From the NCBI RefSeq assembly GCF_016598775.1, contig NZ_CP066802.1, forward strand, positions 2,170,001-2,234,000: DNA of 64,000 nucleotides, read 5' to 3'. Shown one piece after another: positions 11,807 to 30,038 of this stretch. Under the pieces are notes generated by a model. It saw nothing but the letters and a program-made list of their open reading frames with translations, did not search any database and was not told where the DNA came from. Position numbers and translations under genes: made by a program. The DNA is from Actinomyces weissii. Its GTDB lineage: Bacteria; Actinomycetota; Actinomycetes; Actinomycetales; Actinomycetaceae. The stretch's first letter is position 1; each line of letters opens with the position of its first letter.

Positions 11807-13131
11807 CGACCTTCCAGGCCTCGGCCCTGGCGGGGATCAGCTCCCCGTACCAGCGGGTGCAGCAGACCTTCCGCCGGTGGAACCGCCCGGAGGTGCCCGC
11901 CTCCGAGTGGTGGTTCGCGGTGGTGCTGCTGGCACTGATCGGTCTGCGGCTCAAGCTGCCCGGTGGGGTGAACTTCGGCAACGTGCTGGCGGTGCTGGCC
12001 CTGCCCGTCACCTGGACGGCGGTGCGCCGCTCCCGTCTGTTCACGGTGCTGGCCACCCTCTCCCTGGTGGCGCTGCTGTCTGGCTTCGTGCTGCTGATGG
12101 TCAACCTGCAGTGGGCGGTGTTCGTGCGCTCCGAGCTGGTGACCACCTTCTTCCTGGTCACGCTCCTGCCGTCCGTGGCGGCTGCGATCGCCTGGGGGGC
12201 GGAGCGTCTGACCCTGCCGGGGGCGGTGGCCGCCTACTCGGTGGGGCTTACCTACATCGGGGTGCGGAACATCCCTACCACCCCGAACCCCTGGAAGTAC
12301 GTGCTGGGATACCCGGCCACGGTGCTGGTGCTGGCCCTGGTGGACCGTAGCCCCCGCTGGGTGCAGCTGCTCACGGTCCTGGGCCTGGGCGTGCTGTGGG
12401 CCGTCAACGACTCCCGTTCCATCCTCGGCTACCTGGTGATGATCGCGGGCCTGATGGTCTGGCAGGCGCTGGCGGAGAAGTTCGCCATCAAGGCCCGCAC
12501 GCCCCGTTTCCTGGCGGCCTTCCAGGTCGGTGTGCTGGGCACGCTCATGGCGGCGGTGATGGTCTCGGTGGTCTTCGCCGCCAGCAGCGGCCTGCTGGGC
12601 GACTCCGCACAGGCCCGGACCCAGGCGCAGGCATCCTCCTCCACGAACGTGGTGCTCTCAGCCCGCCCGGAGGCCGCCGCCACCTACGGCCTGATGAAGC
12701 ACCGTCCCACGGGTTTCGGCCTGGGTGTCAAACCCGGCTACGACGACGAGCGCGCGGCCATGTACGAGATGAACGGCATCGAGTACGACCCGGAGAACGG
12801 CTACGTCTACAACTACATCTTCGGGCACGGCGTGGAGCTGCACTCCTCCACCTCGGACCTGTGGGCGGCCTGCGGTATCCCTGGCGTCCTGCTGGCGCTG
12901 TTCAGCTTCGTGCTGGTGGGCTGGTCCATGATCCGTAACCTGGGTTCCTTCCACCTCTCGCCGTGGCTGTTCTTCGTGGGCATCGGGGCGCTGTGGGACA
13001 CCTTCTTCAGTCCCCTGATCACCTCCGCCCCGGGCATCGCCGTGGCAATCGGGGCCCTGCTGGCCATGAAGCCGCTGGCCCAGCAGGCCAAGCTGGTGCA
13101 CGGCACGGGCCCGCTACGTGAGCTGGCTTAG
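11803..13131 (+). CDS. O-antigen ligase/polymerase-like membrane protein
   Basis: A 442-residue hydrophobic protein with about ten to twelve membrane helices and one long extracellular loop (about 270-350) containing YGYVYN-like and FGHGVELHSSTSDLWAACGIPG segments. A large loop with conserved His followed by a helix is typical of WaaL/Wzy proteins, which polymerise or ligate lipid-linked oligosaccharides outside the membrane. In this locus, polymerisation (Wzy role) is the likelier job because a flippase, chain-length protein and priming transferase are present. Coupled to the Wzz-like gene by a 4-base overlap. Confidence 0.8.
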   Translation: MTTFQASALAGISSPYQRVQQTFRRWNRPEVPASEWWFAVVLLALIGLRLKLPGGVNFGNVLAVLALPVTWTAVRRSRLFTVLATLSLVALLSGFVLLMVNLQWAVFVRSELVTTFFLVTLLPSVAAAIAWGAERLTLPGAVAAYSVGLTYIGVRNIPTTPNPWKYVLGYPATVLVLALVDRSPRWVQLLTVLGLGVLWAVNDSRSILGYLVMIAGLMVWQALAEKFAIKARTPRFLAAFQVGVLGTLMAAVMVSVVFAASSGLLGDSAQARTQAQASSSTNVVLSARPEAAATYGLMKHRPTGFGLGVKPGYDDERAAMYEMNGIEYDPENGYVYNYIFGHGVELHSSTSDLWAACGIPGVLLALFSFVLVGWSMIRNLGSFHLSPWLFFVGIGALWDTFFSPLITSAPGIAVAIGALLAMKPLAQQAKLVHGTGPLRELA

Positions 13132-13167
13132 CCGCACCGGGGCACCGGCTCCCGCCCGGCCAGGCCT

Positions 13168-14151
13168 CTAGGACCCGGAGCCGGGCTTCTTCCGGGAGTA
13201 CTCACGCACGTCCGCGCCGAAGGCTCCCACGACCATCCCCAGGCCGCCGGCGCCGTCCACCTCGTGGCGGGCCCGCGCGGGCAGGTCCCGGCGCAGGAGG
13301 CTGGTGGCCGCCAGGGCACCCCCGAGCCCGGCCTTGACCAGGCCCTTCAGGGCGAACTTGAGCCGCAGGGGCAGGGGGCTGCCCGGGTGGGTGTCCACCC
13401 GTACCCGGGCCCAGGAGGAGCCGGAGCGGAAGGCCCGCTGCAGGGCCCAGCGGCGGTTGGCCCGCGCAGGCGGCACCCGCTTGGTGACCACCGCCTCGGC
13501 GGCGAAGCGCAGGCTGCCGCCCCCCTGGGTCAGCTGCCTGGTGAACAGGGAGTCCTCCCCTCCGGTCAGCCCGTAGCGCGGGTCAAAGGACAGCCCCAGA
13601 CGCCGCACAGTGCCCAGGTCCAGGAGCAGGTTGCCGGTGTCCGCTGAGCCCACGACCTGCCCGTCCGGGTGGCTCCAGGAGTCGAACACCCCGCTGGCCC
13701 GCACCCACTGGTCGGGGGACTGCTCAAAGCGAGGCGGGGTCGGGCCGGTGACGGCGTCGGCGCCGGTGGCCTCCCGCATCCGCAGCAGGGCGGCCAGCCA
13801 CCCCTCCTCAGGCAGCTCGTCGTCGTCAATGAAGGCCAGCAGCTGGGAGCCTGCGGACTCCGCCAGGGCCCGGTTACGGCCCGCCACGATCCCCGGCTCC
13901 GGCTCGTGGGCGTAGACCACCTCCACCGGCGGGTCAGCCTCCCGGGCCTGGGCGGCCGCCTGCACCACCGTCTGGCGGGCCCCGGCAGCCGGATCGTTGT
14001 CCACCACCAGGACCCGGGCGGCCACGGGCGCGTAGCCCTCACCGCCGCTCCTGACGGAAGCGGCCTCACGCACCAGCAGCGGCAGCACCTCCGCGAGGTA
14101 GCCGTTGCGGCGGTAGGTGAGCATCGCGATGGTCAGCCCAGATGGGGCCAT
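13168..14151 (-). CDS. Family 2 glycosyltransferase
   Basis: A GT-A fold transferase of 327 residues, probably adding one sugar to the lipid-linked repeat unit at the inner membrane face. Visible: N-terminal TIAMLTYRRNGYLAEVL, nucleotide-binding VLVVDNDP, the EPGIVAGRNRAL motif (about 85-96), the DXD-type metal site FIDDDE (109-111) and the GGEDSLFTRQL acceptor-region motif typical of this subfamily. The C-terminal segment is basic and amphipathic. It faces the polymerase gene convergently and is separated from the gene behind it by a strong hairpin, so it has its own promoter. Donor sugar unknown. Confidence 0.88.
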   Translation of the reverse strand: MAPSGLTIAMLTYRRNGYLAEVLPLLVREAASVRSGGEGYAPVAARVLVVDNDPAAGARQTVVQAAAQAREADPPVEVVYAHEPEPGIVAGRNRALAESAGSQLLAFIDDDELPEEGWLAALLRMREATGADAVTGPTPPRFEQSPDQWVRASGVFDSWSHPDGQVVGSADTGNLLLDLGTVRRLGLSFDPRYGLTGGEDSLFTRQLTQGGGSLRFAAEAVVTKRVPPARANRRWALQRAFRSGSSWARVRVDTHPGSPLPLRLKFALKGLVKAGLGGALAATSLLRRDLPARARHEVDGAGGLGMVVGAFGADVREYSRKKPGSGS

Positions 14152-17581: not shown

Positions 17582-17713
17582 GAATCCTCCGGGAGGTTGT
17601 TGGGGACAGCTGGAAAACAGCCGCTTGGATGCCCTCAGTATGTGCATGCAACAGACCTGCCAAAGCGCCGCGCACCTTCATCCTGCGCGGCCCGTACGGG
17701 CATTCTGCGGACA

Positions 17714-17747
17714 CCGCAAGCGGTTTTGCAGGTCCGCTATTGCAATA
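17714..17747 (-). promoter_or_regulatory. Candidate promoter/operator of the LamG/PKD gene
   Basis: Contains CCGCAAG at 17714-17720 with TTTTGCAGG just after it, an imperfect inverted repeat related to the operators before the priming transferase, and the palindrome TATTGCAATA at 17738-17747, part of which could be a -10 box on the minus strand. About 130 bases separate it from the gene start. Confidence 0.45.
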
Positions 17748-17794: not shown

Positions 17795-18463
17795 TCAGGC
17801 GGAAGGTGCCGCTCCCTCAAAGACCGCGGCCTTCAGCGAGGCGTCCAGGTCCACCACGACCCGCACCTGCTCCCGCGAGTCCGCAGGCACCCGGAAGGCC
17901 ACGGAGAAGCTGACGGACTGCCCCGCCTCCACGCTGCCAGGGGCTGGCTCCGTGGCGGAGGGGTGCACCGGGGCCGGGGTGTTGTCCGCCCCGTAGTAGA
18001 AGGTCACCACCAGCGACTCCAGGGAGAGCGCCTCCGCACCCGGGTTGCTGACCGTCACCGGCACCAGCACGCCGGCACCGGCGACCTCACCGGGCTCCTC
18101 CGAGCTCAGGGAGGTGCTGGACAGCTCCCCCAGGGTGATCGTGGCTCCCGACTCCAGCACCGCCGGCTCCTGGATAGGGGCGGGAGCCAGCTGCCGCTCC
18201 GCCTCCGGGTCCCCGCTACCGCTCCCGTCCTCGCCGGACCCCACGGAGCCGCCGCCCTCAGGTGCCGGGGAGGACGTCTGCCCTAGCGGGGTGCCGCTGG
18301 CACCAGGCGTCGCCGAGGCGGTCTCGGAGGCACTGGCAGCACCAGCGGAGGCGGTGGCAGCGGCGTCCCCAGGGGCCTGCGCACGGGAGCAGCCGGGCAG
18401 CAGCACCCCCAGGCACAGAGGCAGGGCCAGCAGGACAGCGGACTTCTTCGACATACGCTTCAC
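17795..18463 (-). CDS. Secreted lipoprotein of unknown function
   Basis: A 222-residue lipoprotein with a basic start, hydrophobic segment and lipobox LPGC. A long Ala/Ser/Gly/Glu-rich linker follows, then a C-terminal beta domain (about 105-215) with VPVTVSNPGAEALSLESLVVTFYYG, reminiscent of DUF4352/Ig-like surface modules. The frame is open further upstream; GTG 18461-18463 is preferred because a TATGCT box lies seven bases before it, a leaderless spacing, and it gives a MKRMSKK start. ATG 18452-18454 is the alternative. It sits in the polysaccharide island and may be an envelope accessory; the function is not known. Confidence 0.7.
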   Translation of the reverse strand: MKRMSKKSAVLLALPLCLGVLLPGCSRAQAPGDAAATASAGAASASETASATPGASGTPLGQTSSPAPEGGGSVGSGEDGSGSGDPEAERQLAPAPIQEPAVLESGATITLGELSSTSLSSEEPGEVAGAGVLVPVTVSNPGAEALSLESLVVTFYYGADNTPAPVHPSATEPAPGSVEAGQSVSFSVAFRVPADSREQVRVVVDLDASLKAAVFEGAAPSA

Positions 18464-18473
18464 AAGCGGCAGC

Positions 18474-18531
18474 ATATAGCGCAGGCAGGCTGCGATATAG
18501 CGACATCCTGGCGCGCTGCCGACCTGCAAGG
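18474..18531. promoter_or_regulatory. Divergent promoter region with ATATAGCG repeats
   Basis: ATATAGCG occurs at 18474-18481 and 18495-18502, exactly 21 bases (two helical turns) apart; on the minus strand these read CGCTATAT and include the lipoprotein -10 candidate. ACCTGCAAGG at 18522-18531 resembles half-sites seen elsewhere in the island. The gap separates the lipoprotein gene from the rightward glycosyltransferase genes. Confidence 0.4.
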
Positions 18532-18605: not shown

Positions 18606-19772
18606 ATGCGCCGCAGCGATCCGAGTCGGCTGAGAATCGCGATGATCGGCACCCGTGGGGTGCCAGCCCGCTACGGCGGCTTCGAGACCGCGATCGAGGA
18701 GGTGGGGCAGCGCCTGGCCGCGCGCGGCCACCAGGTACTCGTCTACTCACGCAACCCAGATGCCAGCACTCCACTGCCGCGCAAGCACCTGGGTATGCGC
18801 GTGGTGGAGCTGCCCGCTATGCGCAGGCGCTCCCTGGAGACCCTCTCCCACACGGGCCTGTCCGTGGCCCACCTGCTGCGGCGGGTCCACCCCGACGTCG
18901 CCCTGCTGTTCAACGCCGCCAACTCCCCCTTCCTGCCAGCCCTGCGACTGGCCGGGGTCCCCGTGGCCACCCACGTGGACGGCCTGGAGTGGCGGCGCGG
19001 CAAGTGGGGGCCTACCGGCCAGCGCTACTACCGGGCCGCCGAGGCCGCAGCCGTGCGCTGGTCCGACGCGCTGATCGCGGACGCCCAGGGCATAGCGGAC
19101 TACTACACGCAGGAGTTCCAGGCCCCGACCTGGCTGATCTCCTACGGCGCCCCCCGCCTGCGCACCGGGTCGGACCGCCTGGCCGAGCTGGGCCTGGAGC
19201 CCCAGGGCTTCCACCTGGTGGTTGCCCGCTTCGAGGTGGAGAACCACGTGGACGTCATCGTGGAGGGCTACGTCCGCTCCCGGGCGCGGCTGCCCCTGGT
19301 GGTGGTCGGCTCGGCACCCTACGCGAACGAGTACACCGCCCGGGTCGAGTCCCTGGCGGACGAGCGGGTGCGGCTGCTGGGCGGGCTGTGGGACCAGGAG
19401 CAGCTGGACCAGCTCTACGGCAACGCCCTGGTCTACTACCACGGGCACTCCGTGGGTGGCACCAACCCCTCGCTGCTGCGCGCGATCGGCGCGGGGGCGG
19501 CAGTGGACGCCTTTGACGTGTCCTTCAACCGGGAGGTGCTGGAGGAGGCGGGCCGCTACTGGCAGGACGCCGACGACGTCGCCGCCCTGGTGGAGTCCGC
19601 CGAGGCCGCCCCGGAGCGGCAGCTGGCCCGCGGCACCCTCTCGCTGGAGCGTGCGGCCCGCTACGACTGGGACGAGGTCACGGACCGCTACGAGGAGCTG
19701 TGCCAGACGCTTGCCGCCGACGGGCCCCGACGCCAACGGCCCTCTGGACGACGGACGGGAGCCTGCTCATGA
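18606..19772 (+). CDS. DUF1972-type family 4 glycosyltransferase
   Basis: A GT-B transferase of 388 residues. The N-terminal IAMIGTRGVPARYGGFETAIEE motif defines the DUF1972 group, which includes rhamnosyltransferases of polysaccharide loci. The C-terminal half carries VARFEVENHVDVIVEGY and YYHGHSVGGTNPSLLRAIGAGAAV, the donor-binding region, though a perfect EX7E motif is not seen. GGAGGT lies five bases before ATG. Its stop overlaps the next glycosyltransferase start (ATGA). It probably acts on the growing undecaprenyl-linked oligosaccharide; rhamnose as donor is only a family-based suggestion. Confidence 0.86.
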   Translation: MRRSDPSRLRIAMIGTRGVPARYGGFETAIEEVGQRLAARGHQVLVYSRNPDASTPLPRKHLGMRVVELPAMRRRSLETLSHTGLSVAHLLRRVHPDVALLFNAANSPFLPALRLAGVPVATHVDGLEWRRGKWGPTGQRYYRAAEAAAVRWSDALIADAQGIADYYTQEFQAPTWLISYGAPRLRTGSDRLAELGLEPQGFHLVVARFEVENHVDVIVEGYVRSRARLPLVVVGSAPYANEYTARVESLADERVRLLGGLWDQEQLDQLYGNALVYYHGHSVGGTNPSLLRAIGAGAAVDAFDVSFNREVLEEAGRYWQDADDVAALVESAEAAPERQLARGTLSLERAARYDWDEVTDRYEELCQTLAADGPRRQRPSGRRTGACS

Positions 19773-20983: not shown

Positions 20984-22345
20984 TCAGCCCTGCGCGGCGG
21001 GCGGCGTCGCAGCCGCTGGAGTCCGCCGCTGGCGCAGGTCCCGGCGCACCCACCAGGCGTAGGGCAGCAGCTGGCAGAGCAGGATGGTCAGGGCGGAGCC
21101 GAGCAGCGGCCCAGCCGCCCCCAGCGGCTCGATAAGCAGGTAGGACAGGGCCAGGTTCACGGGGATCAGCACCAGCACGGGCCACATCTGGAACTGCAGC
21201 CCCCGCGGCGAGGTCATGTACATGGTGATCGGCTGCTTGGCGGCCTCTACCACCACGTTGAGCACCCACACCCAGATCAGCACCGCCGGGATAGCGATCA
21301 GGCCGTCAGAGAGCTTGCCTGCCGCCCAGGGGGTGAGCGCGGCCATGGCCAGGGCCGCCAGCAGCCCGCCCAGGGCGAAGACCAGGGTCGGCTTGGCCGG
21401 GGAGACCACCCGCCCTTGCGCACGGGCCTTGGCGAACAGCGGCCACATGGCGCTGGAGGCGGCGAAGAGCGTCTGGGTGAGCAGCTGGAAGAGGCTGGCG
21501 GCCAGCGTGTACTGGGCCAGGTCGTCGGGCCGCCCGAAGTGGGACAGCAGCAGCCGGTCGGTCTGGAAGGCCAGGGGGATGGCCAGGGCCTGGACGAACT
21601 GGGGTCCGGCGGTGCCCGCGATCGGCACCCCGGGAACGGAGCGCAGGCGGGGCACGTCACGGGCGGCGTCGCGCAGCAGGGGGCGGGTGGCCCGCCAGGC
21701 CACCGTGACACAGATGACCGCTACCAGGGAGTTGGCCAGGTAGGACAGGACCGACAGCTCGTTACCGGCGTCGAGCCGCAGGAGGATGGCCAGGACGAGC
21801 ATGGTGGTGAAGGCGGGCGAGACGACGCCCTGGCTGAGCACCTGGGTGGCGGCCCGCCCCATGCCGACGACCACGCGCTGCCCGATGGTCAGCGGCAGCG
21901 CGGCCGCGTAGACCAGCAGGCACAGGGTGGCGGTCAGACCGCCACCGGGCAGGAGCCTGGCCCCCAGCAGGGTCGGCCACAGCCCTAGCAGTCCGATGGC
22001 GACGCCGATGCTGGCGATCACCAGGGCGGAACTGATCAGCACACGCAAGGCCGTGGTCAAGGTCCGCCGGACCCGGGCGTCCTCGGGCAGGTCCTCCGAG
22101 CCGGAGACGGCGTTGATGACGACCGCGCCGATGCCCAGGTCCGCGAAGGGGATCAGGTTGGGGAAGGTGGCCAGCAGCCCGTACTGCGCGTAGGCGTCCG
22201 CCCCGAAGTGCCCGATTATCAGCCGGGTGTTGACCAGCCCGAAGACCCCGGCCACCCCCATCACCAGGATCTTCGCGAAAGCGGTCCGGCCGACGACCCG
22301 CCACATGCCCGCACCTCTAAGCGCCACCTTGCCTCGCCCAGCCAT
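20984..22345 (-). CDS. Polysaccharide flippase (Wzx/MATE-like)
   Basis: A 453-residue membrane protein with about twelve to fourteen helices, of the polysaccharide transporter (MOP) superfamily that moves undecaprenyl-linked oligosaccharides across the membrane. The N-terminal GRTAFAKILVMGVAGVFGLVNTRLIIGHFGADAYAQYGLLATFPNL matches the family's first two helices. ATG 22343-22345, with GGAAGGA six bases upstream, is preferred to the ATG ten codons earlier. It is transcribed away from the priming transferase; the shared gap holds inverted repeats that could control both directions. Confidence 0.88.
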   Translation of the reverse strand: MAGRGKVALRGAGMWRVVGRTAFAKILVMGVAGVFGLVNTRLIIGHFGADAYAQYGLLATFPNLIPFADLGIGAVVINAVSGSEDLPEDARVRRTLTTALRVLISSALVIASIGVAIGLLGLWPTLLGARLLPGGGLTATLCLLVYAAALPLTIGQRVVVGMGRAATQVLSQGVVSPAFTTMLVLAILLRLDAGNELSVLSYLANSLVAVICVTVAWRATRPLLRDAARDVPRLRSVPGVPIAGTAGPQFVQALAIPLAFQTDRLLLSHFGRPDDLAQYTLAASLFQLLTQTLFAASSAMWPLFAKARAQGRVVSPAKPTLVFALGGLLAALAMAALTPWAAGKLSDGLIAIPAVLIWVWVLNVVVEAAKQPITMYMTSPRGLQFQMWPVLVLIPVNLALSYLLIEPLGAAGPLLGSALTILLCQLLPYAWWVRRDLRQRRTPAAATPPAAQG

Positions 22346-22441
22346 CGGGGTCCTTCCGTCTCTTGGGTAGCCCACCCTAGGACGCCGCGGCCTGAGCCCT
22401 GCCTTACGAGCCGCGGACGTGACGCCGGGCTCACTCTATCT

Positions 22442-22510
22442 TCCGCAAGCAGATCTTGCGGATTCCAAAAAGACCGCAAGTCGATTTTGCGGCCCTTGCG
22501 GTGGTATTAT
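22442..22510 (+). promoter_or_regulatory. Promoter with repeated CCGCAAG/CTTGCGG operators
   Basis: Site 1 (22442-22462) is TCCGCAAG-N5-CTTGCGGA, perfect in both 8-base arms. Site 2 (22474-22492) is CCGCAAG-N5-TTTGCGG. Their centres are 31 bases apart, about three helical turns. A further half-site CTTGCGG lies at 22495-22501, and TATTAT at 22505-22510 fits a -10 box, so site 2 overlaps the -35 position as for an activator touching RNA polymerase. The nearest regulator gene is the LuxR-type protein at 24848-27661. Confidence 0.75.
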
Positions 22511-22808
22511 AACAACCGGGTAACGAACCAGACAGTCAGCCCTGACTAGCAAGGCAACACCCTGTAATGACCGCTTTAACTACCGTTGGACACCCCTTAG
22601 ACACTGAATCCGCAAGCCTTGCGGATCGCACGCAACCCCACCGTATGCCCCCCGCAGGCACCCGAAGGCAACGGCCCTGAGCACGGCCCAGGGGTGCCGA
22701 AAGCGGCAGACTCGAATCACGCCGGGTCGCGGTTGACGCAACCGCCACTCCCCCGGACCTGCTCCCACCTGGGGAGCTTGCCCTTGAAGATTTCGACGAA
22801 AGCCACGT
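22511..22808 (+). other. Long structured 5' leader of the priming transferase
   Basis: About 300 bases separate the likely -10 box from the start codon. No gene is evident here. It contains TCCGCAAG-C-CTTGCGGA at 22609-22625 (same arms as the upstream operators but with a one-base spacer) and a 7-bp hairpin GCGGTTG/CAACCGC at 22729-22745. No known riboswitch class is recognised. It could hold an internal operator or an attenuator. Confidence 0.4.
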
Positions 22809-24284
22809 ATGTCTCTCCTCCTGGCCCCTCTTCCTGCCAAGGCGTCTGCTGCCAGCACCGACGAGTGCGCACGCACGACCGCCCGGGCCAACGTGCACGT
22901 GCGCCGCCCCTGGACCAGCTACCGCCGCATCCTGCGCGCCTGCATGGTCTCCCAGGACCTGCTGCTGTCTGCCTCCACCGCAGCAGCGGTCGCGGCCCTC
23001 ACTGAGCCTTCTCAAGCACCCTGGTTGCTTAGCACCAACATCCTGCTGGTAGTCATCGCCGCCTGCTCCGGAGCCCTGAGCGAGCAGGTGCTCGCCGAGG
23101 CCGCCTCCGGCTGGCGCCGCGTCCTGGCGGCCCTGCCCACCACCGTCCTGGTCACCCTGCTCGCGGCGCAGGTGGCTGGGCTGAGCGTGCCGCTGCGCGC
23201 CACCCTGCTATCCGCTCCCCTGGGCACGGCCGCCATGATCCTGGGCCGCGCGGCCCTGAAGGCGTACCTGCGCCACACCCGCCTGGACGGCCACGGCCTG
23301 CGCCGCGCCCTGGTGGTGGTAGGTACCGGCGCCGACCCGGTACTGCGCGGCCTGCGCCAGCACCCCGGTGACGGCTTCCTGCTGGTTGGCGCCGTGCCCT
23401 CCACCTGCAGCCCCGAGGCCAGCACGCGCATGCCCCGCTGCCTGGGCAGCATCAACGAGCTGCACGAGATCGTGCAGGAGAACAAGGTGGATGTCGTGCT
23501 CCTGGTCGGCGCCGTCCACCCTGAGGACCAGGTCAAGGTGCTGCGCGGCATCGAGGGCACCAGGGCCCGCTTCGTGATGATGCCCGGACTGACCGCGGTC
23601 TCCTCCCAGCGTATCCGCGTGCTGCCCTCCGCCGCCGGCTGGACCGGGGCCGTGGAGGTCGACCAGCGTCGCCAGCGCTCCCTGGCCAAGCGGGCCGTGG
23701 ACCTGGGCGTCGGCAGCCTGCTGACCCTGGTCGCCCTGCCGATCATCGCGGTGGCCGGAGTCCTGGTGCGCCTGACCGACGGCGGCCCCATGTTCTACAC
23801 GCAGACCCGCGTGGGCAAGGACGGCCAGCCCTTCAAGATGTTCAAGCTCCGCTCCATGTACGTCGACGCCGACGCCCGCCGCGCCAGCGTGATCGCCGCG
23901 CGCGCCGGTTCCGGCCAGGGCAACGAGGTGCTCTTCAAGAGCGCCGACGACCCGCGGATCACCCCGGTGGGCAAGGTGCTGCGCCGCCTGTCGATCGACG
24001 AGCTGCCCCAGATCTTCAACGTGCTGCTGGGTGACATGTCCCTGATCGGCCCCCGCCCCGCCCTGCCGGAGGAGGTCGCCACCTACGACGCCGAGGCCCG
24101 TCGTCGCCTCCTGGTGCGCCCCGGCATGACCGGCCTGTGGCAGGTCTCCGGCCGCTCCGACCTGTCCTGGGAGCGTTCCGTGGCCATCGACCAGTACTAC
24201 GTGGACAACTCCTCCTCCCTCCTTGACGTACACATTGCCGCAGCCACCTTCAGGGCCGTGCTGGGCGGAAAGGGTGCCTACTGA
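22809..24284 (+). CDS. Priming sugar-phosphate transferase (WbaP/CpsE type)
   Basis: Membrane enzyme that starts the repeat unit by moving a sugar phosphate from a UDP-sugar to undecaprenyl phosphate. 491 residues: four or five N-terminal helices, a central CoA-binding-like Rossmann domain (about 155-265, RRALVVVGTG), another helix, then the bacterial sugar transferase domain (about 295-491) with KRAVDLGVGS, TRVGKDGQPFKMFKLRSM, LRRLSIDELPQIFNVLLGDMSLIGPRP and RPGMTGLWQVSGRS. Galactose-, glucose- or GlcNAc-phosphate specificity cannot be told. The start lacks a strong ribosome-binding site. Its stop overlaps the next ATG by one base (TGATG). Confidence 0.93.
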   Translation: MSLLLAPLPAKASAASTDECARTTARANVHVRRPWTSYRRILRACMVSQDLLLSASTAAAVAALTEPSQAPWLLSTNILLVVIAACSGALSEQVLAEAASGWRRVLAALPTTVLVTLLAAQVAGLSVPLRATLLSAPLGTAAMILGRAALKAYLRHTRLDGHGLRRALVVVGTGADPVLRGLRQHPGDGFLLVGAVPSTCSPEASTRMPRCLGSINELHEIVQENKVDVVLLVGAVHPEDQVKVLRGIEGTRARFVMMPGLTAVSSQRIRVLPSAAGWTGAVEVDQRRQRSLAKRAVDLGVGSLLTLVALPIIAVAGVLVRLTDGGPMFYTQTRVGKDGQPFKMFKLRSMYVDADARRASVIAARAGSGQGNEVLFKSADDPRITPVGKVLRRLSIDELPQIFNVLLGDMSLIGPRPALPEEVATYDAEARRRLLVRPGMTGLWQVSGRSDLSWERSVAIDQYYVDNSSSLLDVHIAAATFRAVLGGKGAY

Positions 24285-24736
24285 TGCAGCGCTCCAACAC
24301 CTGCGACAAGCTCGTGACCGGCTACGTGCCCGGCGGCTTCGACATGTTCCACATCGGCCACCTCAACATCCTCAAGGAGGCCGCCAAGCGCTGCGACCGC
24401 CTGATCGTGGGCGTGGCCACCGACCAGGCCCTCGTGGACATGAAGGGGCGCGCCCCCATGATCACCTTCGAGGAGCGCCGCGCCATCGTCGAGGCCCTGG
24501 GCATCGTGGACGTGGCGGTGGCGGACCACAGCCAGGACAAGCGCCAGGCCTGGAAGGAGAACCACTTCGACGTCCTGTTCAAGGGCACCGACTGGCAGGG
24601 CACCGCCAAGGGCGCCCGCCTGGAGGCGGAGATGGCGCAGGTCGGCGCGGAGGTCGTCTACCTGCCCTACACGCTGTCCACCTCCTCGACCATGCTGCGC
24701 CAGGCCCTCCACGAGGTCGTCGCCGTCGGCGCCTGA
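24284..24736 (+). CDS. Glycerol-3-phosphate cytidylyltransferase-like protein
   Basis: A 150-residue single-domain nucleotidyltransferase. GGFDMFHIGHLNILKEA carries the HXGH motif and the end TLSTSSTM matches the second CTP-binding motif (RTXGISTT) in altered form, while FKGTDWQGTAKG lies at the substrate side. This is the TagD/GCT family, which makes CDP-glycerol. Coupled to the priming transferase, it suggests the polymer carries glycerol phosphate or another CDP-activated alcohol, yet no glycerophosphotransferase gene is visible here. Ethanolamine-phosphate or FAD-synthetase-type substrates are less likely alternatives. Confidence 0.82.
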   Translation: MQRSNTCDKLVTGYVPGGFDMFHIGHLNILKEAAKRCDRLIVGVATDQALVDMKGRAPMITFEERRAIVEALGIVDVAVADHSQDKRQAWKENHFDVLFKGTDWQGTAKGARLEAEMAQVGAEVVYLPYTLSTSSTMLRQALHEVVAVGA

Positions 24737-24847: not shown

Positions 24848-27661
24848 CTACTTCTCCAGCAGGCCGCACTCCACCAGGCGCGGCGCCAGGTCCTTGCGGG
24901 AGGAGATGCCCAGGGCCCGGTACACGCCGGTGAGCCGCAGCTCTACCGTGCGCACCGCCATGTACAGCTCCCCGGCAATGTCCTTGTTGCGCCACCCCTG
25001 GGCGGCCAACCGAGCCACCTGCAGCTCCATCTCGGTCAGGGCGGGGGCGTCTACCTGGCTCTGCGGCTCGCTCTCCACCAGCGCGCTCGTCTCCTTGCCC
25101 AGGGCGTCAATGGCCGTGACCCAGTAGGCCATCTCGTTGGTGACGGCCAGCTCGTAGGCGCGCGCCAGCAGCACCTGGGCCGAGGAGGAGGCGTCCTCCC
25201 CGATCCCCAGCCCGGCCATGGACAGGCTCGGGGAGACGGACAGCCGGGCCGCACAGGCCACGTTGGCGCGGATCTGCCAGATCGCCGCCCCGGAGACGAC
25301 GGCGTCCAGCACCAGGCGGGAGATCAGGCCGGTGGCCTCCACGTCGTCGGCCAGCAGCACCTCAAGGATCCGGTCGTCCAGCCCCAGCACGCGCTCATCG
25401 GCTCCCTGGGTGCTGGACTCGTCCAGCCCCGCCTGCACCCAGGAGCGCAGCCCCGGAACCCGGTCCAGCATGTCGGGGGCGATGATGAGCATGTCCACCA
25501 CCGAGGACCACACGGCGTCCAGGTACTTGCGGGGCACAGGGGCGGAGACGGCCGGCCCCAGAACCAGCGAGGCCAGTGTGGAGTCACCGGAGACCAGGCG
25601 GGAGGACGCCTCCAGGATCGAGGCCCACAGCTGCTGCGGGGCGGTCCAGCCACCGGCGGCGTCAATGGTCATGGCGTTGTACCAGCGTCCAAAGGCCACT
25701 GTGTCCCCGAAGAGCAGGGCGGCCTGGGCGGCCAGCACGGAACCGCGCCCGGCCAGGGCGGAGCGCACCGGCACCTGGGCCTGCTCGGACTCGAGCCGCT
25801 CACGCATCTGGGCGGTCCAGCCGCGGCGCTCGTCCAGCACGGCCCGCAGGGCCACCGCCTGGGCCTCCAGGTAGGGGGAGACGTCTGAGAGCTGGGAGAG
25901 GAAGGACTCCACCACTGCCGTGGACTGCTGGCCTCCGTTGGTGACCGCCAGGTAGGCGCGGATCACCAGCTCGCCCCAGTTGAGCAGGTCCAGGCGGCCC
26001 ATCTCCTGGGGGACCCCCAGCAGGAAGTCATTGACCCGCACCGCACCGTCAGCCTGACCGTTGAGTCGACGCCGCAGCTCACGCAGGATCACGCGCAGGG
26101 ACTCGTTCTCCTCAGCGGTCTGCGCACCGGAGAGGAGCTCCTCGGCGGCGTCCAGGTGGGCCAGGGGGCTGTTGGTCTCACCCACCAGGATCTCCTGGGC
26201 GGCCATGTAGGCGAAGCAGCGGGCGGAGGACAGCGGGTCCTCGGCGGCCAGGTGGCGTAGCCGGGCGGCGATACGCCGGTCGGAGTGGGCGTTGATGTCC
26301 TCGCCGTCGCGCACGGAGATGAAGCCGGTGATCGCCAGCAGCTCGTCAGCCGGGCTCAGGGCCTGGGACTCGATCAGCTGCAGGAAGCGGGTGGAGGCGG
26401 ACAGGGCGCAGCCCAGCTGGAGCGCCAGCACCGCGGTCAGGAAGGTGACCTGGACCCGGTGCGCGTCGTTCAGCGGCGCTGGTTCCAGAGCCGCCAGGAT
26501 CCGCCAGGCCAGGTCCAGGCTGCCGTGCGAGAGCTCGTGGCGCGCGGACTCAACCAGGGTGCCGAGGTCCGAGTCCTGGGCCTCCCCGGCCTCCAGCTGG
26601 TACCAGGCCCGTTCGCGCGAGCCCTGGGGGGTGGCCTCCGCCAGCCGCCGGGCCAGCTCCCGGTGCCCGTCACCGTGCGCCAGGACCGCCAGGCGGGTCA
26701 CGGCCATGGGGGCCGGGTGGGCGGGCACCTCCGTGGCGGGGGACAGGTTCTCCACCACCCGCACCGGGCGGCAGCCGACCACCCGCTCGACGACGACGTC
26801 GTCCTGCACCAGCTGGAGCTGTGAGGCCACCAGGGCCTCCACCTCCTCCGGCTTGAGCTGGGCGAGCTTGTCAGAGACCATCCGCTGCGTGTCCGCCGAG
26901 AAGGGCAGCTCGTAGGGCAGCATCTCGCGGCCCGACAGCGCCCCGGCGCTGAGGCTGGAGGCGGCCACCGCGATATCGGCGATGCGCCCGCCGAAGGCCC
27001 GGGCCAGCCAGCTGGCGACGACCGGCTCGACGTAGCCGCGGGTCTCGGTGCGGATCAGGTCACGGGTGTCCTCCAGGCCCAGGCGGCTGATGGAGGAGGT
27101 GTACAGGGGCGGCACCGTGGTGCCCGCAGCGGTTCCGGGCGGCAGCATGATGAGCAGAGCCATCGGGAAGCCGGAGACGTAGGAGGCCAGGCGACGCATC
27201 TGCAGCAGGGCCCGCTCGTCCACCTCGGAGATACCTACCACCACCAGTACCAGGGGCCCGGCGTCGGCTGCGGTGGCGCAGAAGCGGGCGGCGGCGACGG
27301 CGCGGCCCGACAGGGAGGTGGCGGCAGCGACCGCGTCGCGCTGCTGCCGCAGCTCGTCCCGGAGGCTGTCCAGGGTGGGCTCAAAACGCAGGTGCTCGAA
27401 GATCTGGGTGACCCCGGAGATCAGCAGCGCGTCCGGGTCGTTGCGGTTCTCCGGGCCGGAGACCCCGGTCGGGGCGGTGCCGTCGATCTCAAGTATGCGG
27501 GCGTCCCGCACGCGCTCAGCGCACTCCACGGCGAGCCGTGGCCCCAGGGACCACGAGCCTGCGGCCACAGGTGCAGATACGAGCACCACCGAGCCTCGGC
27601 CGTTGCGGAGCCGCTCCGCGATCTCCCGGGTGAATAGGCGTCGCTGGTAAAGCGCGTACAC
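24848..27661 (-). CDS. Large LuxR-family transcriptional regulator
   Basis: A 937-residue protein with a C-terminal LuxR-type helix-turn-helix (about 873-930): LTEMELQVARLAAQGWRNKDIAGELYMAVRTVELRLTGVYRALGI. The preceding 870 residues are mostly alpha-helical and repeat-like, as in LAL/MalT-type regulators. The N-terminal region where an ATPase P-loop would be reads VSAPVAAGSWSLGPR, without GK[ST], so ATP binding may be lost; LVLVVVGISEVDE looks like a matching Walker B strand. Start GTG follows GGGAGG. It is the only DNA-binding regulator in the polysaccharide island and the best candidate to control it. The last 12 bases of the gene are repeated 17 bases on, beyond the stop. Confidence 0.85.
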   Translation of the reverse strand: MYALYQRRLFTREIAERLRNGRGSVVLVSAPVAAGSWSLGPRLAVECAERVRDARILEIDGTAPTGVSGPENRNDPDALLISGVTQIFEHLRFEPTLDSLRDELRQQRDAVAAATSLSGRAVAAARFCATAADAGPLVLVVVGISEVDERALLQMRRLASYVSGFPMALLIMLPPGTAAGTTVPPLYTSSISRLGLEDTRDLIRTETRGYVEPVVASWLARAFGGRIADIAVAASSLSAGALSGREMLPYELPFSADTQRMVSDKLAQLKPEEVEALVASQLQLVQDDVVVERVVGCRPVRVVENLSPATEVPAHPAPMAVTRLAVLAHGDGHRELARRLAEATPQGSRERAWYQLEAGEAQDSDLGTLVESARHELSHGSLDLAWRILAALEPAPLNDAHRVQVTFLTAVLALQLGCALSASTRFLQLIESQALSPADELLAITGFISVRDGEDINAHSDRRIAARLRHLAAEDPLSSARCFAYMAAQEILVGETNSPLAHLDAAEELLSGAQTAEENESLRVILRELRRRLNGQADGAVRVNDFLLGVPQEMGRLDLLNWGELVIRAYLAVTNGGQQSTAVVESFLSQLSDVSPYLEAQAVALRAVLDERRGWTAQMRERLESEQAQVPVRSALAGRGSVLAAQAALLFGDTVAFGRWYNAMTIDAAGGWTAPQQLWASILEASSRLVSGDSTLASLVLGPAVSAPVPRKYLDAVWSSVVDMLIIAPDMLDRVPGLRSWVQAGLDESSTQGADERVLGLDDRILEVLLADDVEATGLISRLVLDAVVSGAAIWQIRANVACAARLSVSPSLSMAGLGIGEDASSSAQVLLARAYELAVTNEMAYWVTAIDALGKETSALVESEPQSQVDAPALTEMELQVARLAAQGWRNKDIAGELYMAVRTVELRLTGVYRALGISSRKDLAPRLVECGLLEK

Positions 27662-27848
27662 CCTGCCTCCCTGCGCGATCTATAGGTCCATATCTACAGT
27701 GCAGCCGCAGCCGGTGCGGCAGCACCCCATGAACCGAAAGGGACCGGACCAACAGGACATCCGCATGCGGTTCTATACGGTCACCCTAGCAGAACTTGTG
27801 CGCTTGCCTGCGGTTTTTTCTCGCCCGCATCACTCCGCTTCTTTCAGA
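27662..27848 (-). promoter_or_regulatory. Intergenic region upstream of the LuxR regulator
   Basis: No gene is apparent. On the minus strand a TATAGA box (27684-27679) lies just ahead of the ribosome-binding site, implying a very short leader. A 10-bp palindrome CCGCATGCGG lies at 27761-27770 with another TATAGA next to it. The region does not contain a perfect copy of the operator found before the priming transferase. Confidence 0.35.
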
Positions 27849-27876
27849 GGCTGAGCCTATATGTCTAGGCTCAGCC
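27849..27876 (-). terminator. Hairpin downstream of prs
   Basis: An 11-bp perfect stem (GGCTGAGCCTA with TAGGCTCAGCC, loop of six) lies 18 bases past the prs stop. It separates prs from the polysaccharide regulator. Confidence 0.8.
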
Positions 27877-27894
27877 CGCCTCCAGCACCCCGGA

Positions 27895-28878
27895 TCAGAC
27901 CGAGCCCTCCTCAAAGAGGGAGGTCACGGAGCCGTCGTCGAAGACCGCCTTGATCGCCCGGGCCAGCAGCGGCGCGATCCGCAGGACCGTCAGCTGCTTG
28001 AAGCGCTTGGCCTCCGGGATCGGCAGGGTGTCTGTGACCACTACCTCACGGGCACCACAGGTGGACAGGCGCTCCACCGCGGGCCCCGAGAGCACCCCGT
28101 GCGTACAGACGATGATCACGTCCTTGGCCCCGTTGTCCAGCAGCACCTTGACCGCCTTGGCTATCGTGCCCCCGGTGTCGATCATGTCGTCCACCAGCAC
28201 GCAGGAGCGCCCCTCGACGTCGCCCACCACCCGGTTGGCCACGGACTCGTTGGGGCGCGTGACGTCACGGGTCTTGTGCACGAAGGCCAGCGGAGTACCG
28301 CCCAGCTGGTTCGCCCAGCGCTCCGCCACCCGGATACGGCCCGCGTCCGGGGAGACCACGGTGGTGCTGGCCGGGTCCACCCGGGTGCGCACGTACTCCA
28401 CCAGGACCGGCTGGGCCCACAGGTGGTCCCAGGGCCCGTCAAAGAAGCCCTGCTCCTGGGAGGAGTGCAGGTCCACGCTCATAATGCGGTCGGCGCCCGC
28501 GGTCTTGTACAAGTCGGCCACCAGGCGGGCCGAGATGGGCTCCCGCCCCAGGTGCTTCTTGTCCTGGCGGGCGTAGGGGAAGAAGGGGGAGACCACGGTG
28601 ATCCGCTTGGCGGAGGCGCGCTTGAGGGCGTCCACCATGATCAGCTGCTCCATGAGCCAGTCATTGACCCGGTCACCGTGGGACTGCAGGACGAACACGT
28701 CGCAGCCACGCACGGACTCGTTGAAGCGGACGTAGGTCTCGCCGTTGGCGAAGTCGTAGGCCGTGGAGGACAGGACCTCGATCCCCAGCTCATTGGCGAC
28801 GTCCTCCGCCAGGGCCGGATGCGCCCGCCCGGAGACGATCACGAGCTGCTTCTCGCCGGTGGTGATGATGCCCGACAT
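27895..28878 (-). CDS. prs: Ribose-phosphate pyrophosphokinase
   Basis: Makes PRPP from ribose 5-phosphate and ATP for nucleotide, histidine and tryptophan synthesis. The 327-residue product is full-length class I: FANGETYVRFNESVRG, the ATP-binding FPYARQDKKHLGREPIS flexible region, VDLHSSQEQGFFD and the PRPP-binding loop CVLVDDMIDTGGT. The ATG is preceded by GAAGGGA. It follows glmU after 95 bases, the glmU-prs order of many bacteria including mycobacteria (Rv1018c-Rv1017c). Confidence 0.97.
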   Translation of the reverse strand: MSGIITTGEKQLVIVSGRAHPALAEDVANELGIEVLSSTAYDFANGETYVRFNESVRGCDVFVLQSHGDRVNDWLMEQLIMVDALKRASAKRITVVSPFFPYARQDKKHLGREPISARLVADLYKTAGADRIMSVDLHSSQEQGFFDGPWDHLWAQPVLVEYVRTRVDPASTTVVSPDAGRIRVAERWANQLGGTPLAFVHKTRDVTRPNESVANRVVGDVEGRSCVLVDDMIDTGGTIAKAVKVLLDNGAKDVIIVCTHGVLSGPAVERLSTCGAREVVVTDTLPIPEAKRFKQLTVLRIAPLLARAIKAVFDDGSVTSLFEEGSV

Positions 28879-28973
28879 AGGTGTGTTCCCTTCTGGTGGC
28901 CGCGGTGGCCTGGTGTCTTGCGGCTGGTCGGTGGACTGGTGGGTCGGTGGCCCCGGCGTCGCCAGGACCGGGC

Positions 28974-29960
28974 TCAGCGGGAGCCGCTCAGGCGGGTCAG
29001 CGGGGCGATGACGGCGCCGGCCGGGACCTGCGCGTCGTCCAGGACGCTGTGGGCCCCTACCAGGGCGCCCTGCCCGACGCTGGTGGTGCCGCGCAGGAGC
29101 ACACCGGGCTCCAGCCGGACGTCGGTGGCCAGGGTGACGGTCACGTCCACCCAGGTGGAGGCGGGGTCGGTGACGCCCACACCGCGCTCCATCCAGGCAG
29201 CCAGCACCCGGCGGTTCAGCTCCGCCCCCAGGGCGGCCAGCTGGGCGCGGTCGTTACAGCCCTCGACCAGCCAGTGGTCGGTGACAGTGAGCGCCGAGGT
29301 GGACAGTCCCGCCTCGTGGGCCTGCGCCACGACGTCGGTGAGGTAGACCTCCCCCTGGTCGTTGTCGGAGCCCAGGGAGCTCAGGGCCTGGCGCAGGTGG
29401 GCGGCGTCGAAGACGTATACGCCGGCATTAACCTCCTGGATCTCCCGCTGCGCGGCGGTGGCGTCACGGTGCTCCACGACGGCGGCGACGGTGCCGTCAA
29501 CCGTCCGCACCACGCGGCCGTAGCCACTGGGGTTGTCCAGGGTGGTGGTGAGCAGGGTGACGACGTCGCCCCGCTGCTGGTGCTGGGACAGGAGGCTGCG
29601 GAGGGTGGCGGCGTCCAGCAGGGGCACGTCACCGGAGGTCACCACTACCGGCCCGGTCGCGTCCTGTGGCAGGGCCGCCAGCCCGCAGGCCACCGCCCGC
29701 CCGGTCCCGGGGACCTCGTCCTGGTCGGCGGGCCGGGCGTCCGGGGCCACCTGAGCCAGGTGCCGCACCACGGCGTCACGCTCATGGCGAACTACCACCA
29801 CCAGGTGCTGCGGCTCCAGCCCACGTGCGGCGGTGACCGCGTGGTCCAGGAGGCTGCGCCCGCCGATGCGGTGCAGGACCTTGGGTGTGGCCGAGCGCAT
29901 GCGGGTGCCCTTGCCTGCAGCCATGACGATGACGGCGGTCGGGTTGCTGGTGGAGCCCAC
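28974..29960 (-). CDS. glmU: GlmU-type uridylyltransferase with shortened C-terminus
   Basis: Makes UDP-GlcNAc from UTP and GlcNAc-1-phosphate. The uridylyltransferase domain (about 1-235) is intact: VMAAGKGTRMRSATPKVLHRIGG, the VPGTGRAVACGL region, VTSGDVPLLD, PSGYGRVVR, EVNAGVYVF and the GEVYLTD motif. Only three to four left-handed beta-helix coils follow (WVDVTVTLATDVRLEPG...), and the protein ends at 328 residues against about 450-490 usual; acetyltransferase active-site residues are absent. Start GTG 29958-29960 has GAGGA upstream and is preferred to the longer frame. Since prs starts 95 bases on, the shortening is not a frameshift with a lost tail. Confidence 0.9.
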   Translation of the reverse strand: MGSTSNPTAVIVMAAGKGTRMRSATPKVLHRIGGRSLLDHAVTAARGLEPQHLVVVVRHERDAVVRHLAQVAPDARPADQDEVPGTGRAVACGLAALPQDATGPVVVTSGDVPLLDAATLRSLLSQHQQRGDVVTLLTTTLDNPSGYGRVVRTVDGTVAAVVEHRDATAAQREIQEVNAGVYVFDAAHLRQALSSLGSDNDQGEVYLTDVVAQAHEAGLSTSALTVTDHWLVEGCNDRAQLAALGAELNRRVLAAWMERGVGVTDPASTWVDVTVTLATDVRLEPGVLLRGTTSVGQGALVGAHSVLDDAQVPAGAVIAPLTRLSGSR

Positions 29961-30038
29961 GGGTCCTCTTCTTCTCACTGCTTGGAAGTCCGAACGAGGT
30001 GATCCTACGCCGCCCCCGCAGGGGCTTAGGGCCACCCG

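Follow-up and report, generated by a model that had tools for sequence, protein, structure and literature searches.

A candidate dyad operator at the promoters of a wzx-like flippase gene and a LuxR-type regulator gene in an Actinomyces polysaccharide island

ComA, a GerE/NarL-type activator of Bacillus subtilis, recognizes the element TTGCGG, arranged as an inverted repeat with a spacer of 4 nt or as a direct repeat with a spacer of 5 nt (PMC4797271). In the spacing series reported from that study, inverted repeats were bound only at spacers of 4 and 5 nt among the 1 to 10 and 14 nt tried, and direct repeats were bound at a spacer of 5 nt and weakly at 4 nt, with no binding at 3 nt (PMC4797271). 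The lux box of LuxR-type activators is described as centred at -42.5, in an account that also covers autoregulation (PMC7585371). A further comparison is offered by the LAL and MalT-like regulators, which resemble the protein considered here in their large size, in their C-terminal GerE domain and in the helical repeats seen in its predicted model. MalT reads arrays of asymmetric sites, and recognition helices of the form R[ST][IV]E..LT..[FY] are common among LAL proteins; to our knowledge, few large LuxR-type regulators have mapped sites. No earlier account of the operator proposed below was found in the literature searched, though one may exist.

The stretch of DNA analysed (the window, 64,000 nucleotides) covers positions 2170001-2234000 of the single-contig genome of Actinomyces weissii (2,564,181 bases) and holds an island encoding glycosyltransferases, a wzx-like flippase, an exopolysaccharide glycosylphosphotransferase, a cytidylyltransferase-like protein and a 937-residue GerE-type regulator, whose nearest named relative is found in Actinomyces bovis NCTC11535 (87% identity). 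The glycosylphosphotransferase and cytidylyltransferase-like genes form a two-gene operon between wzx and the regulator gene (Table 1). In a first search of 39 genomes, A. weissii included, a 525-bp region was matched only in A. weissii and G009, and G039 was added through its match to the regulator; these two genomes, one of them A. bovis, are the sister species of this study and together with A. weissii make up the three-species set. Among the islands fetched from relatives, only these two yielded a wzx homologue (tblastn, E 1e-6), and both have the repeat array described below.

Table 1. Features of the locus, with positions numbered from the first nucleotide of the window
Feature	Position	Strand	Basis
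TGCGG-N3-CCGCA upstream of LamG/PKD gene, doubtful member	17706..17718	.	Conserved; overlaps hairpin 17707-17737
wzx, flippase-like gene, proposed target	20984..22345	-	Pfam PF01943; start codon at 22345 checked
Putative -10 of wzx, TAGAGT, 18 nt after dyad	22433..22438	-	TAGAGTG in 3/3 species; predicted
Left arm of first palindrome, particular to A. weissii genome	22443..22449	+	2/7 columns invariant
Proximal half-site of wzx dyad, CCGCA on minus strand, at -35 place	22457..22461	-	
Distal half-site of wzx dyad, TGCGG on minus strand	22474..22478	-	Invariant in 3/3 species
Additional half-site TTTGCGG	22486..22492	+	6/7 columns invariant
Additional half-site CTTGCGG	22495..22501	+	7/7 columns invariant
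Leader palindrome CCGCAAG-C-CTTGCGG	22610..22624	.	Core CGCAA-N3-TTGCG in 3/3 species
Leader block, strongly conserved	22629..22675	+	0.83 of columns invariant
Exopolysaccharide polyprenyl glycosylphosphotransferase gene, divergent from wzx, possible second target	22809..24284	+	Pfam PF02397; TIGR03025 above cut-off
Cytidylyltransferase-like gene, 3' of glycosylphosphotransferase gene	24284..24736	+	Pfam PF01467
LuxR-type (GerE) regulator gene, 937 residues, proposed binder	24848..27661	-	GerE at residues 874-926
GerE helix-turn-helix, residues 874-926	24884..25042	-	Pfam
Palindrome CCGCATGCGG just 3' of regulator's putative -10	27761..27770	.	3/3 species
Putative -10 of regulator gene, TAGGGT, 20 nt after dyad	27783..27788	-	Predicted
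Dyad TGCGG-N11-CCGCA upstream of regulator gene, centre about -43	27809..27829	-	3/3 species
Ribose-phosphate diphosphokinase gene, upstream of regulator, same strand	27895..28878	-	233 bp gap

Several features of the surroundings may be recorded in their own right. A perfect 11-bp inverted repeat with a 6-nt loop (27849-27876) follows the ribose-phosphate diphosphokinase gene and is probably its terminator, and a 516-residue plus-strand frame (27796-29346), which overlaps this gene and the glmU-like gene and is matched in G009 in two pieces, is probably spurious. The GlmU-like gene (28974-30035, 353 residues) aligns to the GlmU model over positions 3-318 out of 488, with a score under the cut-off, so that its acetyltransferase part seems absent. 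In both sister species CCGCAA-N8-TTGCGG lies just past the 3' end of the regulator gene (about 15532-15551 of L037 in G009 and about 7491-7510 of L038 in G039), probably as a terminator of convergent genes. All four distant islands (L041-L044) carry a similar TetR-like gene and conserved promoter motifs (TGTTCACGTTC...GGTAGTARATT), read by eye; in L041 a TetR-family gene (Pfam TetR_N, 12540-13199) lies between the regulator and glycosylphosphotransferase genes.

The first-pass annotation of this DNA had drawn attention to inverted repeats between wzx and the glycosylphosphotransferase gene, and these are indeed present: CCGCAAG-N5-CTTGCGG at 22443-22461 and CCGCAAG-N5-TTTGCGG at 22474-22492, 31 bases apart from start to start, along with the further half-site CTTGCGG and a leader copy with a 1-base spacer. 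Spacers within the array are 12 nt for the inverted arrangement, 3 nt for the direct one and 7, 7 and 3 nt for the outward palindromes; exact CCGCAA-N7-TTGCGG occurs at three places in the genome, two of them in the array region. The hexamers TTGCGG/CCGCAA number seven in the 461-bp intergenic region, compared with a shuffle mean of 0.41, and neither this count nor the clustering of five within 60 bp was reached in any of 5000 dinucleotide shuffles; when corrected for the post hoc choice of hexamer, any 6-mer at all reached seven in 37/5000. Across the whole window the CCGCAAG 7-mer is not enriched (17 matches against a mean of 11.9, with at least 17 in 10/100 shuffles), so it is the clustering that counts. 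The repeats are real and beyond chance.

The array is kept in place in the three species, and two blocks stand out in their alignment, at about 22455-22501 and 22605-22675. From the left arm of the first palindrome onwards, the array arms have 2/7, 7/7, 5/7, 6/7 and 7/7 invariant columns and the arms of the leader palindrome 5/7 and 6/7, giving 38/49 for all arms together compared with 193/404 in the remainder; when the set of arms was slid along the alignment, equal or higher invariance was reached at 8/267 offsets, which counts against the preferred reading, namely activation of wzx and of its own gene by the LuxR-type protein. The palindromes as originally drawn are not supported, the first having a left arm with two invariant columns, and the TATTAT region (22502-22515) is invariant in only 2/14 columns; on account of this low invariance, neither is the conserved unit. 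Nor is the TATTAT promoter supported as the main target, since the conserved geometry faces wzx on the other strand, where the alignment identifies the unit as TGCGG-N12-CCGCA, 18 nt before TAGAGTG; its proximal half-site lies within the first palindrome's right arm. On the leader side, the block at 22629-22675 (CGCAACCCCACCGYATGCCC...CCGAAGGC) is the strongest conserved noncoding one, and it gave no RNA family match, no clear fold and no clear short gene. An RNA leader was considered and rejected: Rfam matches at the gathering score in seven relative loci (L044 excluded) were three tRNAs only, and a lax search of 22300-22900 returned four matches (E 0.97-4.6), whose scores fell well short of gathering.

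A matching dyad, absent from the first-pass annotation, precedes the regulator gene itself. Towards wzx the arrangement is TGCGG-N12-CCGCA-N18-TAGAGTG in all three species, and towards the regulator gene it is TGCGG-N11-CCGCA-N20-TAG[GT]GTG, again in all three; two more distant species, G043 and G052, carry the regulator dyad in an N12 form, followed by N13 and TAGCGTG. With the first T of the putative -10 set as -12, the dyad centres fall at -41.5 for wzx (3/3), at -43 for the regulator gene (3/3) and at -36.5 in G043 and G052 (2/2). The first two values would fit a class II position, and the third would fit it poorly. This third value tells against the preferred reading, as do two further observations: the regulator's upstream region holds only the 5-mers TGCGG/CCGCA and no full TTGCGG/CCGCAA hexamer, and a sigma-70 consensus scan of 22300-22900 returned no promoter. 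A terminator scan was likewise empty.

These features place the locus close to the described systems in some respects and apart from them in others. The hexamer of the wzx array is identical to the ComA element and a GerE/NarL-type binder is proposed for it; ComA promoters also have several half-sites of mixed orientation, and type I and II activation has been proposed there in the study cited (PMC4797271). The inverted spacers here, however, are 11-12 nt, lengths that fall between those tried in the ComA study, the direct spacer is 3 nt, only the 5-mers occur in the promoter of the regulator gene, and the regulator is without a receiver domain. Since the spacers differ and that promoter lacks the hexamer, the dyads do not qualify as ComA sites under the published rule. 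The likeness to the lux box lies in a dyad for a GerE-type protein, in the putative centres at -41.5 and -43 and in the proposed autoregulation, whereas the half-site sequence is different, the centre is at -36.5 in two species and no autoinducer-binding domain was found.

Restriction of the dyad to these promoters was examined by enumerating, in all three species, every exact dyad with 5-bp arms and a spacer of 0-16 nt within 253 bp, no arm being preset. Upstream of wzx this leaves only TGCGG-12-CCGCA and CCGCA-9-TGCGG, and upstream of the regulator gene only TGCGG-11-CCGCA and CCGCA-0-TGCGG. Among the control regions, those upstream of GT4 and GT2 yielded no three-species dyad of this enumeration, the LamG upstream region yielded TGCGG-N3-CCGCA, the glycosylphosphotransferase leader yielded three dyads built on TTGCG/CGCAA and GCGGT, and 51 windows of regulator coding sequence gave 16 counts of five other dyads. 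Dyad arms coincide between random segments of one genome in 211/3000 pairs and so are not rare; it is the three-species condition that carries the weight. The G043/G052 pair shares six dyads upstream of the regulator gene, TGCGG-12-CCGCA being one of them, a point against the preferred reading. In nine loci (222 kb) TGCGG-N11/12-CCGCA occurs at 11 places, of which eight lie in the two promoters (wzx in three species, the regulator gene in five), two elsewhere in the window and one in L038. A motif common to all nine islands was sought as 9-mers with one mismatch, and the counts upstream of the regulator (1), glycosylphosphotransferase (0) and GT4 (15) genes were within or near those of three shuffled controls each; there were no such 10- or 11-mers.

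The composite TGCGG-N11/12-CCGCA-N12/21-TAGNGTGNC was then scanned in 49 Actinomyces genomes. It occurs at seven places in five genomes, all at wzx or regulator promoters and all in genomes that carry the regulator, compared with eight scattered matches in eight genomes for its reversed control; in the A. weissii wzx promoter the final base departs from the strict form. A relaxed form ending in TANNNTG gave eight places in the five genomes, again all at these promoters, with two for the control. Because the composite was derived from these very sites, only its absence elsewhere is informative. Full-length relatives of the regulator are present in 9/49 Actinomyces genomes, five of which have the composite, and at E 1e-30 or better in 9/213 family genomes, the nine belonging to a single genus; in the remaining 40 Actinomyces genomes the composite was not found. 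In four genomes (G053, G005, G051 and G056) TGCGG-N11/12-CCGCA was absent from the 20 kb fetched although the recognition helix is kept, and no dyad is common to these four upstream of the regulator or glycosylphosphotransferase genes.

Scans for the palindrome forms were less discriminating. CCGCAAG-N5-CTTGCGG with up to two mismatches gave 19 matches in the A. weissii genome against 32 for the reversed control. In A. weissii, G009 and G039, respectively, CCGCAA-N0-25-TTGCGG gave 7, 11 and 12 places against 2, 9 and 11 for its reversed control, TTGCGG-N2-30-CCGCAA gave 5, 6 and 8 against 6, 5 and 29, and CGCAAG-N6-TTGCRG with one mismatch gave 15/14, 17/13 and 12/17 (forward/reverse) against 9/7, 13/21 and 16/15; TTGCGG-N12-CCGCA with one mismatch fell below its control in 5/5 genomes. 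A. weissii exceeded its control only for CCGCAA-N0-25-TTGCGG and CGCAAG-N6-TTGCRG. Three of its seven CCGCAA-N0-25-TTGCGG places belong to the wzx array locus, three others fall within long open reading frames, of which one has a Pfam match, and the last sits between genes for an aldo/keto reductase and an MFS protein, in a stretch also crossed by a 505-residue frame without Pfam match. With these palindrome counts, and with the composite at two promoters in the A. weissii genome, a broad regulon is not supported. What stands of the original suggestion is an island-local signal tied to the LuxR-type protein, the dyad being present in the regulator's promoter in five genomes and the composite elsewhere in 0/49.

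Related sites had also been pointed out before three other genes. The sequence before the LamG/PKD gene (17714-17732) has another geometry and lies inside a conserved GC-rich hairpin, though a conserved TGCGG-N3-CCGCA is present there, and its membership is doubtful. This hairpin (17707-17737, -17 to -20 kcal/mol), located between the gene at 17795-18529 and the LamG/PKD gene, may be terminator-like or an operator. The half-site before the GT4 gene at 18606 is not conserved in relatives; those before 32622 were read in the A. weissii sequence.

In the regulator, GerE is the only Pfam family, and no receiver, autoinducer-binding or ATPase domain was found. Unlike LAL and STAND regulators, it has a degenerate P-loop (APxxxGxWxLG, without the lysine) in all eight aligned relatives, which does not match the Walker A motif and makes ATP binding by the usual motif doubtful. 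The structural model is modest (pLDDT 69.5, pTM 0.55) and shows an alpha/beta portion, helical repeats and, at the terminus, a helix-turn-helix; it has no PDB match at E <= 0.001, and a weak match to the STAND-TPR structure 6mfv (E 1.9e-3). The MalT model matches only the helix-turn-helix of the regulator, below cut-off. This domain aligns with ComA (2krf) at E 5e-4, the fifth best PDB sequence after four other GerE-type proteins, and a reading of the alignment gives R[ST][IV]E..LT..[FY] as common to both. None of the ten other GerE domains found in the A. weissii genome has E..LT at the recognition helix. In G053, G005, G051 and G056 the helix is unchanged, but R or K takes the place of a W slightly ahead of it. 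The regulator gene of G052 (L040, 9392-12171) matches in two pieces, residues 1-857 and 868-936.

Taken together, a compact operator probably lies in the divergent intergenic region between wzx and the glycosylphosphotransferase gene, its core TGCGG-N12-CCGCA read on the minus strand. In the putative wzx promoter, with TAGAGT as the -10, the dyad would be centred near -41.5 and the proximal half-site would occupy the -35 place. The 937-residue GerE-type regulator would bind this dyad together with that of its own promoter (N11, centre near -43) and would activate both promoters from a class II position, resulting in autoregulation along with activation of an export gene; through the additional half-sites at 22486-22501 and 22610-22624 it may also act on the divergent glycosylphosphotransferase gene. 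The sequence itself shows the dyads, their conservation and their confinement to these promoters, whereas their role as operators, the identity of the binder, the sign of regulation and the start sites are inferred from it. That the dyad is a conserved cis-regulatory element is highly probable, and its use as an operator by both wzx and the regulator gene is likely. The reading as a whole, in which the LuxR-type protein binds the dyads as a class II activator of its own gene and of wzx, we hold with modest confidence, slightly above even.

This reading must be weighed against one in which the dyads do serve wzx and the regulator gene as operators but are bound by another protein encoded elsewhere, such as a NarL-type response regulator, the LuxR-type gene being just one of its targets. 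As four islands that lack the dyad keep the same recognition helix, we infer rather than observe binding by the LuxR-type protein, and the preferred reading is weakened both by these relatives and by a spacing that is not that of ComA. A survey confined to GerE domains also found ten others in the genome. These ten, however, have a different recognition helix without E..LT, and the composite is found in 0/40 Actinomyces genomes in which the LuxR-type protein has no full-length counterpart; another binder appears unlikely, if still a serious contender. A change of sign, with the LuxR-type protein acting as a repressor or mixed regulator whose arms at 22443-22449 (between the wzx -35 and -10) and 27761-27770 block RNA polymerase, is improbable: in 3/3 species the palindrome CCGCATGCGG does follow closely after the putative -10 of the regulator gene, but the wzx arm is conserved in only two of seven columns and the conserved dyads at -41.5 and -43 occupy the usual class II activator place.

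The repeats might instead act as nucleic-acid hairpins, in an RNA leader, a terminator or a cruciform, rather than being bound by a protein, and the array as single-stranded DNA does fold better than 200/200 shuffles (z -4.4), just as the LamG element is a conserved hairpin. The first hairpin, however, is without its left arm in both relatives, the wzx and regulator dyads lie upstream of the putative -10 with loops of 11-12 nt, the leader folds only weakly better than shuffles or not at all (z -0.8, -2.3 and -1.7) and no Rfam family fits, which leaves this account very improbable. Chance or neutral similarity, for which the post hoc choice of motif and the frequency of shared dyads in random segment pairs might speak, is hardly credible in view of the hexamer clustering, which no shuffle reached, and the three-species conservation at two promoters.

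A more specific version of activation by the LuxR-type protein is tentative, and we place it somewhat short of even: a regulator with a decayed P-loop would control just two promoters genome-wide, those of its own gene and of a lineage-specific flippase gene, through a wide dyad (N11-12) of ComA-like half-sites at a class II position, the autoregulatory site being the older and the wzx site belonging to the lineage with this wzx gene. If true, this would provide a testable pair of operator and regulator for an Actinomyces surface polysaccharide island, and would show that a GerE-type protein very unlike ComA can read the half-site known from Bacillus in a different geometry, which would help to predict the targets of large LuxR-type regulators.
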